This document shows positions 28,551 to 42,752 of a stretch of 64,000 bases of DNA, piece after piece; positions within the stretch are counted from its first letter, which is position 1, and each line of letters opens with the position of its first letter. A model generated the notes under the pieces. That model was not told where the DNA came from and made no database searches. It was given only the letters and a program-made list of their open reading frames with translations. The DNA is from Agrobacterium larrymoorei (GTDB lineage: Bacteria; Pseudomonadota; Alphaproteobacteria; Rhizobiales; Rhizobiaceae): positions 1,872,001 through 1,936,000 of the forward strand of contig NZ_CP039691.1 of NCBI RefSeq assembly GCF_005145045.1, read 5' to 3'. The translations under genes and the position numbers were made by a program.

Positions 28551-29238
28551 GTTTCTGCCCGCAAAGCTGCGCACGGCAAAGTAACGCTGTTTGAAGAGCC
28601 ATGCTCGACTGGATTGTTCTGCTTGGAGAAGTGGGGTCGACCGGGACAGCAAAGACAGCACGAGGAACCGTTCAATAGCGTCGCCGGTCGACCGACCCCA
28701 AGACCCAGGAGATGCGGCGGACCTGAGCATCAAGGGGTATCTCTACAGCCCCTCCTCTGGGAGAGACCGTCACATCATTCCTTCAAGTTCCCCAGGCGCT
28801 ATTTTTGTTTTCGCCTGCTTGCCGAAGGTTATGTTCTTGAACTAATAGTCGCGTAAGAAATCAAGAAAATCAACAAATTATTAATCCGCCGGCAGCCTGC
28901 TTTGCGGATATGGTTAAATCTCCCGCTTTGGCACAGCTTTGGTCTACCTGCTACGCAAGTTATGGCACAGGCTTCAGCCTTTAAAACTAAGGAGTTTTAA
29001 AGTTTGACTTGGATAATCTGCGTTTCGTTGATGGAGACACAAGAGATAAAGAAGTAATCGTTACGCGCTCTTGTTCGCGTCCATTTTCGCTTGCGTCTAT
29101 GCAAAAGCAATCGAGAACCGACTTTTCTATAGTCGTCAGTTCAGCACCATGCCTGGACACTGGGAATAGTTGCTGCAAACAAGCTGTTCAAAAACCTGCG
29201 AGGGGAGCTATATTACTGGGTCTCGCCATCGAAAAAGA
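28551..29238. other. Long intergenic region between rpmG and pleD
   Basis: About 690 nt without a convincing gene. It contains an imperfect hairpin, GGGGTCGACCGG (28633-28644) with CCGGTCGACCGACCCC (28684-28699), and two near-direct TGGCACAG copies around 28930 and 28964. A perfect 10-bp palindrome stands at 28979-29002. Codon-like open frames here start at TTG without family resemblance. Nothing further seen. Confidence 0.6.
28979..29002. repeat. Perfect 10-bp inverted repeat with AAGG loop
   Basis: CTTTAAAACT (28979-28988) and AGTTTTAAAG (28993-29002) with loop AAGG. It is AT-rich and lies 237 nt beyond the pleD stop. There is no strong U-tract, so it could be an operator or a weak terminator for a minus-strand transcript. 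Confidence 0.6.
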
Positions 29239-34926: not shown

Positions 34927-37900
34927 TCAGACCAGTTCGACATCGATAACGCCGGGAGCAGAGCGCAGCGCCGCTGCTATTTCCGGCGAAATCCTGTATT
35001 TCTCCGTCAGTTCGACCTCGATTTCGCGTTGCCCCTCATCCTTTATGACAACGAAGTAAACCGAGCCATCACCTCTGGTGTTGAGATGCCGGGCAACGGT
35101 TTTGAGAGGCCCGGAATCGCGAACATAAACCCGCAGAGCCTTCTGCATCTGCACCGACTTCTCCTCCAGAGATTGCGCTGTCTGGATGCGAAGTCCGATA
35201 CCCTCCGGTCGCTCTTCCGCCTGAACGGTAATGACGAGCGATTTGCCGACTTCCAGCAGATCACGATACTGCCCCAGACCTTCCGAAAACAGCACGGCTT
35301 CATACTGACCGGATGCGTCCGAGAAGGTGACGATGCCCATCTTGTTGCCGGTGCGGGTCTTGCGCTCCTGTTTACCCGTTACGGTCCCCGCCAGACGACC
35401 GGCAGTGGCGCCCTGTTTCACTGCCGCTGAGAAATCCGAGATATTCTGGACGCGCAGCTTGTCGAGCACGTTGCGATAAGTGTCGAGCGGGTGGGCCGTT
35501 AGATAGAAGCCGAGCACCTGATATTCCCGCAACAGCTTTTCCGAGGCGAGCCACGGCTGGTAGGCAGGCAGCACCAGCTTTTCCGGGCCGGTTGCGGCAC
35601 CGGAACCGAACATATCATGCTGCCCGGTAACGCGGCTTTCCTGCGCGCGTTGCGAATAGCCGATGATCCGGTCCAGACCACCGATCAGTTCCGCGCGATC
35701 CTTGCAGAAGCAATCGAAGGCTCCGGCATTGATAAGGCTTTCCAGAACACGGCGGTTGATCTGCTTGGGATCGATCCGCAGGCAGAAATCTTCAAGGCTC
35801 GAAAACGGCTTATCGCCGCGCACGTCCACGATGTGGTCCACCGCCCCTTCGCCAACGCCCTTTAAAGCGGCGAGCGAATAATAGATGCGGTTCTCGCCCG
35901 TCTCGAAGCGGCGGAAGGACGTCTGCACCGAAGGTGCCACGATCTCGATGCCGAGGCGCGCCGCATCCTGCCGGAAGTCGTTCACCTTTTCCGTATTCGC
36001 CATATCCAGCGTCATGGACGCGGCGAGGAATTCGACCGGATAATGCGCCTTCATATAGGCGGTCTGGTAGGACACAATAGCGTAGGCGGCGGCATGCGAC
36101 TTGTTGAAGCCGTAATTAGCGAACTTGGCCAGCAGATCGAAAATCATGTCCGACTGGGCCTTGGACACGCCGTTCTTCATCGCACCGTCAACGAAACGTT
36201 CACGCTGCTGGTCCATCTCCTCCTTGATCTTCTTACCCATGGCGCGGCGCAGAAGATCGGCTTCACCAAGCGAATAACCGGACAGGACCTGGGCGATCTG
36301 CATCACCTGTTCCTGATAAACGATAACGCCCTGCGTCTCCTTCAGCAGGTAGTCGATCGTCGGATGAATGGATTCGATTTCTTCGTCGCCATGCTTGCGG
36401 GCATTATAGACCGGGATGTTCTCCATCGGGCCCGGACGATAAAGCGCAACAAGCGCGATGATGTCCTCGATACAGTCCGGGCGCATGCCGATCAGCGCCT
36501 TGCGCATGCCCGCACTTTCCACCTGGAACACGCCGATGGTTTCACCGCGCGAGAGCATCTCGTAGGTCTTCGGATCGTCCAGCGGGATGGAGGCGAGATC
36601 GACATGGATGTTGCGCTTGGCAACGAAATCGACGGCGACCTTAAGCACCGTCAGCGTCTTCAGACCGAGAAAGTCGAACTTTACGAGACCGGCGCTTTCC
36701 ACCCATTTCATGTTGAACTGCGTAACCGGCATGTCCGAACGCGGATCGCGATACATCGGCACGAGCTTCGATAGCGGTCGGTCGCCGATGACGATACCGG
36801 CGGCGTGCGTGGAGGCGTGACGGTAGAGCCCCTCGATCTTCTGGGCGATATCCAGAAGCCGGGCAACGACCGGCTCCTTGTCTATCTCTTCCTGAAAACG
36901 CGGCTCTTCTTCGATGGCTTTCGAAAGCGGCGTCGGGTTGGCCGGATTATTCGGGACGAGCTTACAGATGCGGTCCACCTGCCCGTAGGGCATTTCCAGC
37001 ACGCGACCCACGTCACGAAGAGCCGCACGCGCCTGCAGCGAACCGAAGGTGATGATCTGCGCCACCTGCTCGCGCCCGTATTTCCGCTGCACGTAGCGAA
37101 TGACCTCTTCGCGGCGGTCCTGACAGAAATCGATATCGAAATCCGGCATCGAAACGCGTTCCGGGTTGAGGAAGCGTTCGAAGAGAAGCGAGAAGCGCAG
37201 CGGATCGACGTCGGTAATCGTCAGGGCATAGGCAACCAGCGAGCCTGCACCGGAACCACGACCGGGGCCGACCGGAATATCGTGCTGCTTGGCCCATTTG
37301 ATGAAGTCGGCAACGATGAGGAAGTAGCCCGGAAACTTCATGCGCTCGATAACGCTGAGTTCGAAATCCAGCCGCTCGCGATATTCCTGTTCCGTATAGC
37401 CCGGTGCCATGCCGAGTGCGGCAAGGCGTTGATCGAGACCTTCCACGGCCTGTCGCCGAAGCTCCAGCGACTCGGCGCGTTCCGCTTCCTCCGGATCATC
37501 GCTGGCGCCGGTGAAGCGCGGCAGGATCGGCCCGCGCTTCTTCAGCACATAGGAGCAGCGCTGCGCAATCTCGATCGTATTTTCGATGGCCTCGGGAATA
37601 TCCTTGAACAGCGATATCATCTCATCGCGGCTTTTCAGATAGTGGTCGGGCGTCAAGCGGAACCGGCTGTCATCGGACACGATGGCATTATGCGCCACGG
37701 CCATCAGGGCGTCATGTGCCTCATAATCCGCCTTCGAGGGAAAGAAGGCTTCGTTGGTGGCGACAAGCGGAATGTCGTGCTCGTAGGCAAGCGCAATCAT
37801 CCGGCGCTCATGCGCGCGGTCATAATTGCCCTGCCGCTGTAGCTCTATGTAAAGCCTGTCGCCGAAAAGGTTCCTGAGGGCGAGCAGCCGTGCGGTTGCC

Positions 37901-38424
37901 TGCGCCGCATGGCCTTCCCTGATGGCCATATCGACAGGGCCACCGGATGCGCCGGTGAGTGCGATCAGTCCTTCATTGCTAGCCTCTTCAAGCCAGGATT
38001 TGGAAATATTGACCGAATGGCCGCTGCCTTCTCCGTCGAGATAAGCACGGCTTATAAGATCGACCAGCCGCTCATACCCGGCAGCATCCGCAGCCAGAAG
38101 CACGATGGCAGGCAACTTGGACAGGTTGTTATGCCCCCGCTTATCGTCGGTGGCATCCTGCATGTCGATGGAGACCTGGCAGCCGATGATGGGCTGCAAG
38201 CCTTCATCCCGCGCCTTTTCGGAAAATTCCAGCGCGACGAAAAGATTATTCGTATCGGTAATCGCTATGGCGGGCTGTGCATCGCTGACAGCCTTGGCCA
38301 TGATCTTCTTCAAGGGCAGCGCGCCCTCGAGCAGGGAATAAGCGGAGTGAACCCGCAGATGGACGAAGCCGGGCGATTTCATGATGGTGCCCGAAACGTC
38401 CTGTCCCGCCAAAGTGTCACTCAT
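34927..38424 (-). CDS. dnaE: DNA polymerase III subunit alpha
   Basis: Replicative polymerase catalytic subunit. The 1165-residue product has an N-terminal PHP domain (FVHLRVHSAYSLLEGALPLKKI), the palm with GPGRGSGAGSLVAYAL and the acidic motif PDFDIDFCQDRR, fingers and thumb regions (GMRPDCIEDIIALVALYRPGPM, NYGFNKSHAAAYA), a tandem HhH region (FDCFCKDRAELIGG) and a C-terminal OB-fold region (RLAGTVTGKQERKTRTGNKMGIVTFSDASGQYEA). I place the start at 38424 (MSDTLAGQ); the frame reaches 38442. Confidence 0.97.
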   Translation of the reverse strand: MSDTLAGQDVSGTIMKSPGFVHLRVHSAYSLLEGALPLKKIMAKAVSDAQPAIAITDTNNLFVALEFSEKARDEGLQPIIGCQVSIDMQDATDDKRGHNNLSKLPAIVLLAADAAGYERLVDLISRAYLDGEGSGHSVNISKSWLEEASNEGLIALTGASGGPVDMAIREGHAAQATARLLALRNLFGDRLYIELQRQGNYDRAHERRMIALAYEHDIPLVATNEAFFPSKADYEAHDALMAVAHNAIVSDDSRFRLTPDHYLKSRDEMISLFKDIPEAIENTIEIAQRCSYVLKKRGPILPRFTGASDDPEEAERAESLELRRQAVEGLDQRLAALGMAPGYTEQEYRERLDFELSVIERMKFPGYFLIVADFIKWAKQHDIPVGPGRGSGAGSLVAYALTITDVDPLRFSLLFERFLNPERVSMPDFDIDFCQDRREEVIRYVQRKYGREQVAQIITFGSLQARAALRDVGRVLEMPYGQVDRICKLVPNNPANPTPLSKAIEEEPRFQEEIDKEPVVARLLDIAQKIEGLYRHASTHAAGIVIGDRPLSKLVPMYRDPRSDMPVTQFNMKWVESAGLVKFDFLGLKTLTVLKVAVDFVAKRNIHVDLASIPLDDPKTYEMLSRGETIGVFQVESAGMRKALIGMRPDCIEDIIALVALYRPGPMENIPVYNARKHGDEEIESIHPTIDYLLKETQGVIVYQEQVMQIAQVLSGYSLGEADLLRRAMGKKIKEEMDQQRERFVDGAMKNGVSKAQSDMIFDLLAKFANYGFNKSHAAAYAIVSYQTAYMKAHYPVEFLAASMTLDMANTEKVNDFRQDAARLGIEIVAPSVQTSFRRFETGENRIYYSLAALKGVGEGAVDHIVDVRGDKPFSSLEDFCLRIDPKQINRRVLESLINAGAFDCFCKDRAELIGGLDRIIGYSQRAQESRVTGQHDMFGSGAATGPEKLVLPAYQPWLASEKLLREYQVLGFYLTAHPLDTYRNVLDKLRVQNISDFSAAVKQGATAGRLAGTVTGKQERKTRTGNKMGIVTFSDASGQYEAVLFSEGLGQYRDLLEVGKSLVITVQAEERPEGIGLRIQTAQSLEEKSVQMQKALRVYVRDSGPLKTVARHLNTRGDGSVYFVVIKDEGQREIEVELTEKYRISPEIAAALRSAPGVIDVELV

Positions 38425-38550
38425 TTCCCGCATTCCCGTCATTCTGAATCGGGCTGATTTTGGGGCTTTCCGGCGGCAAAGTCCACCGCCAAAGGAGGCT
38501 ATGCACGTCTATCAATCCTTGCGGCGGCGACGTGATTTCCGCCAGAATAG

Positions 38551-38637
38551 TCACATGGAGGTGAGGATCACCGAGAAGCTGGCAACAAAGACAGCTATGG
38601 AAGCGAAGGCGGCAATGTCACGGAAGATGTCGGTCAT
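38551..38637 (-). CDS. 28-residue single-TM peptide under a LexA box (SidA-like candidate)
   Basis: Codons give MTDIFRDIAAFASIAVFV followed by ASFSVILTSM and TGA. A short amphipathic start is followed by one hydrophobic helix from about residue 8 to 26. The AAGGAG ribosome-binding site is 7 nt before the ATG. The promoter TTGACA (38688-38693) is followed after 17 nt by a -10 at 38665-38670, and a perfect LexA box overlaps that -10. SOS-induced tiny inner-membrane peptides are known in Caulobacter (SidA, 29 residues, which inhibits division through FtsW/FtsN). Similarity in sequence to SidA is untested; the parallel is size, topology and regulation. It stands between dnaE and lolD on the same strand. 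Confidence 0.75.
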   Translation of the reverse strand: MTDIFRDIAAFASIAVFVASFSVILTSM

Positions 38638-38658
38638 TTGTCTCTCCTTACTCGTTAT

Positions 38659-38673
38659 GTTCTAAATTTGTTC
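38659..38673 (-). promoter_or_regulatory. Perfect LexA (SOS) box GTTC-N7-GTTC
   Basis: On + the sequence is GTTC (38659-38662), TAAATTT, GTTC (38670-38673), the alphaproteobacterial LexA direct repeat. On the minus strand it reads GAAC-N7-GAAC and covers the -10 region of the 28-residue peptide gene. The -35 TTGACA lies 15 nt upstream (38688-38693). Confidence 0.8.
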
Positions 38674-38687
38674 TCATTTTGTTTCCG

Positions 38688-38693
38688 TGTCAA
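38688..38693 (-). promoter_or_regulatory. -35 element TTGACA of the peptide promoter
   Basis: Consensus TTGACA on the minus strand, 17 nt from the -10 hexamer CAAATT (38665-38670). Transcription would begin near 38658, about 20 nt before the ATG, giving a short leader that carries the Shine-Dalgarno. Confidence 0.6.
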
Positions 38694-38783
38694 CAGCTTT
38701 TTTAGTCTGTTCTTTTGAAGCGCCACCTGACCTGCACCCGCGCATCTGCGACATGTTTCTGCAAGTGTTTGACTCAAAACGAA

Positions 38784-38811
38784 AAACCCGCATGAAAGCT
38801 CATGCGGGTTT
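38784..38811 (-). terminator. Strong rho-independent terminator downstream of lolD
   Basis: A perfect 12-bp stem, AAACCCGCATGA (38784-38795) with TCATGCGGGTTT (38800-38811), loop AAGC. On the minus strand it is followed by a U-rich end (TTCGTTTTG). It lies 140 nt past the lolD stop. Confidence 0.85.
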
Positions 38812-38950
38812 CAGAAGACTTTTTTGATTGTAGAGTTAGAGGAACAGCCTCATCAGAACAGGAAGCCATGCATGCCAGATAAGCACGGTCACGCTGCTGG
38901 ATCTCTCTATCCAAGGAGCCTCCCGACTGCCCAAGGGCCGTCGCAGGCGC
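38812..38950 (-). ncRNA. Candidate small RNA or long 3' UTR of lolD
   Basis: A 139-nt stretch between the lolD stop and the strong terminator, without a coding frame. It contains small hairpins (for example GGATAGAGAGATCC and GGAGGCTCC on the minus strand). The combination of a non-coding stretch and a strong terminator could be an independent or 3'-derived sRNA. No promoter was identified. Confidence 0.3.
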
Positions 38951-39634
38951 CTAGAATTCGACGATCTTGCCTTCGCTTAGCGTAACCCGGCGATCCATGC
39001 GGGCGGCAAGATCGTGGTTGTGCGTGGCGATCAGCGCTGCAAGGCCGGATTGGCGCACGAGGGCTTCCAGTGCGTCGAACACATAGGATGCGGTTTCGGG
39101 ATCGAGGTTGCCCGTCGGTTCATCGGCCAGAAGCAGGAAGGGCGCGTTGGCCACCGCTCTGGCAATCGCCACGCGCTGCTGCTCACCGCCGGAAAGCTCT
39201 GCCGGGCGATGTTCGCCGCGATGGCCGATGCGCATATAATCGAGAAGCGCCTTGGCGCGTTGCTGCGCTTCCTTGTGTGGAAGGCCCGCAATAAGCTGCG
39301 GCATCATGATGTTTTCCAGTGCGGAAAACTCGGGCAGCAGATGGTGGAACTGGTAGACGAAACCGATATCGCTGCGGCGAATGGCCGTGCGCTCTTCATC
39401 CGACAGCGTTCCGCAAGGCTTGCCGTTGATGAAGACTTCGCCCGCATCCGGATGCTCCAGCAAACCGGCCAGATGCAGCAGGGTCGATTTGCCCGTGCCG
39501 GAAGGTGCAACGAGCGCGACGATTTCGCCGCTTCTAAGCTCGAAATTCGCCTGTTTCAGAATGGAAAGGCTGGTCTCGCCCTGCCCATAGGTCCGTTCCA
39601 CGCCGGAAAGCTGTAAAGCCATTTTCTTTGCCAT
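38951..39634 (-). CDS. lolD: Lipoprotein-releasing ABC transporter ATP-binding protein
   Basis: ATPase of LolCDE, which releases mature lipoproteins from the inner membrane to LolA. The 227-residue protein has Walker A APSGTGKS (43-50), Q-loop, signature [14 protein letters not shown], Walker [13 protein letters not shown] and the His switch [12 protein letters not shown]. The Ala at the first Walker A position, where Gly is usual, is a small deviation. It follows lolC by 15 nt. Confidence 0.94.
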
Positions 39635-42605: not shown

Positions 42606-42723
42606 ACAAAAGAGGCAGGAAGTTTAAATTCTTGTCGTTTTCGCGGTCAGTCTTGGGAGGATTAGATCTTAGGCGCGCTAGTTCGCTGCCCCGGCAACGG
42701 TTACAGATCACGCGAAACTAAGA
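42606..42723 (+). ncRNA. Candidate small RNA ending in a strong terminator
   Basis: About 120 nt of non-coding sequence before a plus-strand rho-independent terminator (42724-42752), downstream of a plausible promoter at 42571-42599. No open frame with family resemblance lies between proS and the DUF1467 gene on this strand. The presence of a terminator where no plus-strand gene ends is the main reason to propose an RNA gene. The exact 5' end is unknown. Confidence 0.45.
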
Positions 42724-42752
42724 AACAAGGCTGAAAAGCCTTGTTTTTTTTT
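42724..42752 (+). terminator. Strong rho-independent terminator without an upstream gene
   Basis: AACAAGGCT (42724-42732) pairs with AGCCTTGTT (42737-42745), loop GAAA, followed by at least seven T. The tetraloop and U-tract are ideal. Confidence 0.92.

Follow-up and report, generated by a model that had tools for sequence, protein, structure and literature searches.

SidA of Caulobacter, the closest described system, is a protein of 29 amino acids which interacts with FtsW and FtsN (PMC4211646). Deletion of lexA in Caulobacter leads to filaments via constitutive sidA expression, and about 97% of the Caulobacter SOS promoters carry a single LexA box (PMC12700426). In C. crescentus, sidA is CCNA_02004 (PMC10769358), CCNA_02005 is a nucleoside hydrolase (PMC3667746) and dnaE is CC1926 (PMC1839093); from the locus numbers, we infer that CC1926 and CCNA_02004 are adjacent. 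Another SOS-regulated peptide, E. coli DinQ, is toxic and spans the membrane once (PMC3567139). Our literature search found no recognised report of SidA outside Caulobacter, earlier mention of a wider conservation being possible, and gave no SOS division inhibitor that has been named in Agrobacterium, Sinorhizobium or their kin.

In this study, we describe a short gene of Agrobacterium larrymoorei which lies under a predicted LexA operator directly upstream of dnaE1. We give evidence for its conservation, for selection on its peptide and for in-register similarity to the corresponding Caulobacteraceae peptides.

The locus in the Agrobacterium larrymoorei window

The stretch of DNA analysed (the window) comprises 64,000 nucleotides and is part of a 2.97-Mb contig in a genome of 5.26 Mb, which also encodes FtsW. 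Two further contigs of this genome are identical to A. larrymoorei replicons over the lengths compared, 8.0 kb for pTiAF3.44 of strain AF3.44 and 6.5 kb for NZ_CP072170, in line with an origin from this species of the Rhizobiaceae. The window sequence, read on the minus strand, gives the order lolD, TTGACA, LexA operator, AAGGAG, 28-codon open reading frame (ORF) and dnaE1. The sidA-like ORF MTDIFRDIAAFASIAVFVASFSVILTSM (38551..38637, minus strand) starts with ATG at 38637 and ends after 28 codons with TGA (38553-38551). The encoded peptide has a hydrophobic stretch from A9 to L25, predicted to form a single membrane helix. Searched against Pfam and NCBIfam, this peptide and four relatives matched no family at E <= 1.

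The TTGACA, perfect direct repeat, Shine-Dalgarno sequence, 28-codon ORF with one hydrophobic helix and TGA listed in the initial annotation are all confirmed by the sequence, with corrections to two details. The Shine-Dalgarno sequence AAGGAG (38644..38649, minus strand) is present, yet it lies 6 nt before the ATG and not 7 nt as stated. The -35 hexamer TTGACA (38688..38693, minus strand) is found at a fixed offset in 35/37 genus loci. A -10 element had been placed 17 nt past it under the LexA box; the hexamer at this distance, CAAATT (38665..38670, minus strand), does overlap the operator, but it is weak as a presumed -10, matching TATAAT in three of six positions, and a sigma-70 consensus scan gave no site.

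The predicted LexA operator GAACAAATTTAGAAC (38659..38673, minus strand) is a perfect GAAC-N7-GAAC with half-sites at 38673-38670 and 38662-38659; on the plus strand it reads GTTCTAAATTTGTTC. A degenerate third half-site, AAAC (38681..38684, minus strand), lies in phase 11 bp upstream of it. AAAC is the commonest degenerate form, and the third half-site is GAAC in 19/30 genus loci and 20/24 other family loci. Triple operators of the form GAAC-N7-GAAC-N7-GAAC, with one half-site per 11 bp, are frequent, all three half-sites being exact at the fixed offset in 24/37 genus loci and 5/24 other family loci. The box alone is not significant, as the window holds three exact boxes against 1.73 expected; genome-wide there are 167, compared with 94 for the pattern read backwards. 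The operator is considered more than chance because it is conserved. The organism's own lexA has the same motif upstream in exact form (GAACACATATGGAAC).

Further observations concern other genes of this genome. Upstream of its recA (L293) only one-mismatch boxes are found, GAACAAAAAGAGTAC among them, the boxes of lexA and of the peptide gene being exact. Two further DnaE-family genes are present in the genome (G000), at C2:330941-333433 and C3:102785-105721. ImuA- and Y-family polymerase genes accompany the C3 copy on the plasmid whose record matches; this copy has an exact LexA box (L290:508), and none was found in the stretch fetched for the C2 copy.

Downstream, dnaE1 (replicative DNA polymerase III alpha; 34927..38442, minus strand) starts 108 nt past the peptide stop. 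The upstream neighbour is an ABC ATPase gene (38951..39634, minus strand), which we take to be lolD; in the S. meliloti record the corresponding gene is an ABC transporter ATP-binding protein beside a lipoprotein-releasing permease. The terminator scan placed a terminator-like hairpin after lolD (38783-38812) and found none between the peptide ORF and dnaE1, so that a transcript starting here could reach dnaE1. No Rfam family reached threshold within about 3.9 kb of the peptide locus. Elsewhere in the window, Rfam matches were obtained for the alphaproteobacterial sRNA ar9 (42606-42752, plus strand) and for EcpR1 (28630-28740, minus strand), an sRNA modulating the cell cycle in alpha-rhizobia (PMC4414408).

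Conservation in the genus and family

The ORF is present in 37/37 genus genomes searched, including its own, at E 1e-7 or better and with 28 codons in each. Of these loci, 36 have an exact GAAC-N7-GAAC no more than 60 nt upstream, L034 being the exception. Over the 37 loci, the mean column identity is 0.66 in the upstream flank, 0.98 in the -35 hexamer, 0.92 in the operator, 0.91 in the ORF and 0.61 after the stop. Among 33 distinct genus sequences pN/pS is 0.13 in frame, which indicates purifying selection, and mean pairwise differences at codon positions 1, 2 and 3 are 0.108, 0.002 and 0.292. In the other five frames pN/pS is 1.17, 54, 1.25, 10.9 and 0.24; the last value belongs to an antisense frame and may mirror the true one. 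These values bear on the idea that a chance ORF lies under a real LexA operator aimed at dnaE1 alone. Exact boxes are indeed not rare in the genome; the constant length in all genus genomes, the related frames in other genera and the strong in-frame selection nevertheless largely refute this idea, and we regard it as very improbable.

The association with dnaE extends beyond the genus. Among the 24 best non-genus family loci, from 24 genomes, 24/24 lie beside dnaE and 21/24 have an exact operator. In total, the peptide ORF is beside dnaE in 61/61 distinct loci (37 genus, 24 others; L038 was counted out as a repeat of L017). Thus the frame is conserved beyond the species, together with operator and dnaE neighbour, so that the lack of such conservation, which would have refuted the initial annotation, does not apply. 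Searching 297 family genomes with the peptide gave a match in 204 and none in 93 at E <= 1, a loose cut-off which includes chance matches. Two genomes (G336 and G287) have four peptide-model matches each at E <= 1, spread in part over several contigs; the extra matches are possibly paralogues away from dnaE, or chance.

A counterpart is found in a Sinorhizobium meliloti strain, where a 28-residue ORF, MADFVRDLAAFASMSLFIVSISVIALGL, stands under a triple operator with the lol genes on one side and dnaE on the other. The S. meliloti gene table, which is incomplete, lists no gene at this place. Ribo-seq of S. meliloti revealed a novel translated sORF, sORF25, in the dnaE1 5'-UTR (Hadjeras et al. 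2023, PMC10117765); the words LexA and SOS are absent from the main text of that paper. Since sORF25 has the same genomic position, it is probably the MADFVRDLAAFASMSLFIVSISVIALGL gene. The S. meliloti Ak57 record (L295) is titled plasmid pSymB; at 3.7 Mb, and with dnaE, a proline-tRNA ligase gene and lol genes, it is probably a mislabelled chromosome.

The main rival explanation is a cis-acting leader ORF (uORF) whose translation tunes dnaE1 in the SOS response, the peptide itself being inert. Some sORFs of this kind have been suggested to act as uORFs (PMC10117765), and both the constant place beside dnaE and the lack of a terminator-like site before dnaE1 in our scan agree with such a role. 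Against it stand the selection on amino acids with a retained hydrophobic helix, the poor identity after the stop and a stop-to-dnaE gap which varies from 85 to 117 nt in the genus and more widely elsewhere. Moreover, the RNA fold of the peptide-dnaE gap is not unusual (z -1.0). Given the amino-acid selection and the variable gap, a uORF role would not be the whole story, and we consider it unlikely, even if co-transcription with dnaE1 may be real.

Loci beyond the family and the link to SidA

A search of 385 class genomes with the peptide family gave nothing strong outside its own genome; 18 genomes matched at E <= 0.1, of which 17 were at E 0.0056 or worse and were set aside. As sequence search alone stays within the family, the survey was anchored on dnaE. 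In the order, 119 genomes had a dnaE match and 68 upstream regions were examined; in the class, 127 genomes had a match and 29 regions were examined. Removal of four regions at contig edges from these 97 left 93 (66 order, 27 class), two of which (L090, L092) belong to the window's own family. An exact operator lies within 600 nt upstream of dnaE in 48/93 regions; the five shuffled sets gave between 1 and 5.

The peptide model used on these regions was built from three peptide groups. Fourteen of the 93 regions supplied sequences for it, hand-picked after the upstream regions had been viewed, and 13 of the 14 have a box. The association was therefore also computed without them. At 10 bits or more, the model found the peptide in 21/79 held-out regions, compared with 1/93 antisense and 0/465 shuffled regions; 58/79 held-out regions scored below. 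Peptide and operator occur together in 32 of all 93 regions, with 3 peptide only, 16 operator only and 42 neither (Fisher p 7e-10). The 79 held-out regions gave 19 with both, 2 peptide only, 16 operator only and 42 neither (Fisher p 8e-7); they are not fully independent, as at least L106, L108 and L109 come from genera that also supplied a model sequence. Some operator-only regions, e.g. L110, L120 and L125, contain hydrophobic short ORFs with a low model score.

A PopZ search of the class for a Caulobacter genome gave no close match, the first four having 46-56% identity. From the 80 loci of the PopZ scan 26 genomes were picked by eye. All but G825 (Caulobacter vibrioides isolate 32-67-7), in which dnaE had no match, yielded a dnaE locus. 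All 25 Caulobacteraceae-type dnaE loci have a peptide of 29-30 residues directly upstream, as counted with a regular expression written after these loci had been inspected. Their operator is present with at most one mismatch in 25/25, an exact one being missing in 11/25. The fetched flank contains a nucleoside hydrolase gene in 15/25 loci, including that of C. vibrioides OR37 (L244), which agrees with the neighbour expected for C. crescentus sidA from the published locus numbers. The 29-residue ORF of L232, from a metagenome-assembled genome (Proteobacteria bacterium isolate CAULO1), is preceded by a nucleoside hydrolase gene (PF01156, E 6e-75) and followed by dnaE. From their locus only, we concluded that the Caulobacteraceae ORFs upstream of dnaE are putative sidA genes.

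A LolD-like stretch is found in the flank of 13/25 Caulobacteraceae loci, hence lolD has also stayed close to the locus in some Caulobacteraceae. In the flanks of L224, L226, L227 and L237 the LolD-like match is almost complete and a nucleoside hydrolase match is missing, and several hydrolase-bearing loci (L232 and kin) show a LolD fragment only, at the flank end. It looks as if the nucleoside hydrolase gene had been inserted between lolD and the peptide gene.

The family and Caulobacteraceae groups are connected through peptides from further families in the order. The profile pairs, all in register, gave E values of 1.7e-10 (A2-A4), 1.4e-5 (A4-A3) and 1.3e-4 (A2-A3), the latter two being modest: for A2-A3 the probability is 54% and the best core-shuffled control reached 18.0 against a real score of 19.0, and for A4-A3 the best such control reached 22.7 against 23.0. 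None of 200 shuffles per profile pair reached the real score. By position and profile, the Agrobacterium gene is probably a positional orthologue of sidA; the possible SidA analogue of the initial annotation is thereby supported and raised to a probable orthologue.

Type I toxins are not known to be retained at one locus across families. This bears on the explanation that the gene encodes another SOS-induced small membrane peptide, similar to DinQ, which disturbs the membrane or hits a target outside the divisome. Such a peptide would be of similar size, with one helix and an SOS operator. The gene is, however, kept beside dnaE across families, no Rfam family reached threshold within about 3.9 kb of it, and its Caulobacteraceae counterparts upstream of dnaE correspond to the FtsW and FtsN interactor SidA (PMC4211646), so that we rate a DinQ-like function as improbable, a little more so than a uORF role.

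Proposed role and comparison with known inhibitors

We favour the reading, with a probability of roughly 0.7, that the Agrobacterium gene is a sidA orthologue, repressed by LexA and induced by DNA damage, which encodes a single-helix inhibitor of the septal synthase and is likely co-transcribed with dnaE1. Weighing against this reading are the two modest profile matches, the 93 of 297 family genomes with no peptide match and the failure of sequence search to give strong matches elsewhere in the class, the different C-terminal half, the inexact operators at 11/25 Caulobacteraceae loci, the 58/79 held-out regions below 10 bits and the one-mismatch boxes of recA. LexA would repress the promoter by binding to the direct-repeat half-sites, which lie downstream of the -35 hexamer and upstream of the start codon. 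Upon DNA damage, RecA-driven cleavage of LexA would free the promoter and the 28-residue single-helix inner-membrane peptide would be produced. By analogy to SidA, it might dock on the septal synthase FtsW/FtsI/FtsN and keep it inactive until repair is complete, thereby arresting division; the same transcript probably extends into dnaE1. By the same analogy, the peptide should insert in the inner membrane and keep the septal synthase inactive for as long as LexA is being cleaved.

In a broader reading, which we put forward tentatively and at slightly less than even odds, sidA is an ancestral alphaproteobacterial checkpoint gene and not a Caulobacter oddity, lying in an SOS-driven sidA-dnaE unit where one LexA operator both stops septation and raises the supply of replicative polymerase. 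The conserved face R-(D/E)-x2-A-x2-(S/A)-x3-F would be the divisome-binding surface, and the C-terminal half would have diverged with the FtsW of each lineage. If true, SidA becomes a family instead of a Caulobacter case, and its natural diversity could map the FtsW contact. The arrangement also suggests that in these bacteria the replicative polymerase gene itself is under LexA. Being conserved, below the usual annotation size and at a fixed address, the gene is a direct target for study.

Two other division inhibitors were ruled out as counterparts. SulA is a soluble protein which disrupts FtsZ polymerisation, whereas the Agrobacterium peptide has 28 amino acids and a membrane-helix sequence. 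DidA has 71 amino acids and is induced by DriD independently of SOS (PMC4211646), in contrast to the 28 amino acids and the LexA operator found here.

SidA of C. crescentus (CCNA_02004) is alike in size, 29 amino acids compared with 28, and shares with the Agrobacterium peptide gene the single hydrophobic helix, the LexA operator and the site immediately upstream of dnaE. Aligned in register, the Caulobacteraceae peptides and the Agrobacterium peptide have M1, R6, D/E7, A10, S13, F17 and V18 in common. The C-terminal half differs, a W-M motif being present in the Caulobacteraceae peptides and missing in the Agrobacterium peptide, and the nucleoside hydrolase found upstream at many Caulobacteraceae loci is absent at the Agrobacterium locus. 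In other bacteria YneA, SosA and ChiZ are SOS-induced membrane inhibitors of septal synthesis, as proposed for the peptide described here. YneA, likened to it by description only, differs by its LysM domain and by acting outside the membrane. Like SidA, YneA interacts with FtsW, and in models the two are placed on opposite sides of FtsW TM7 (PMC13396833).
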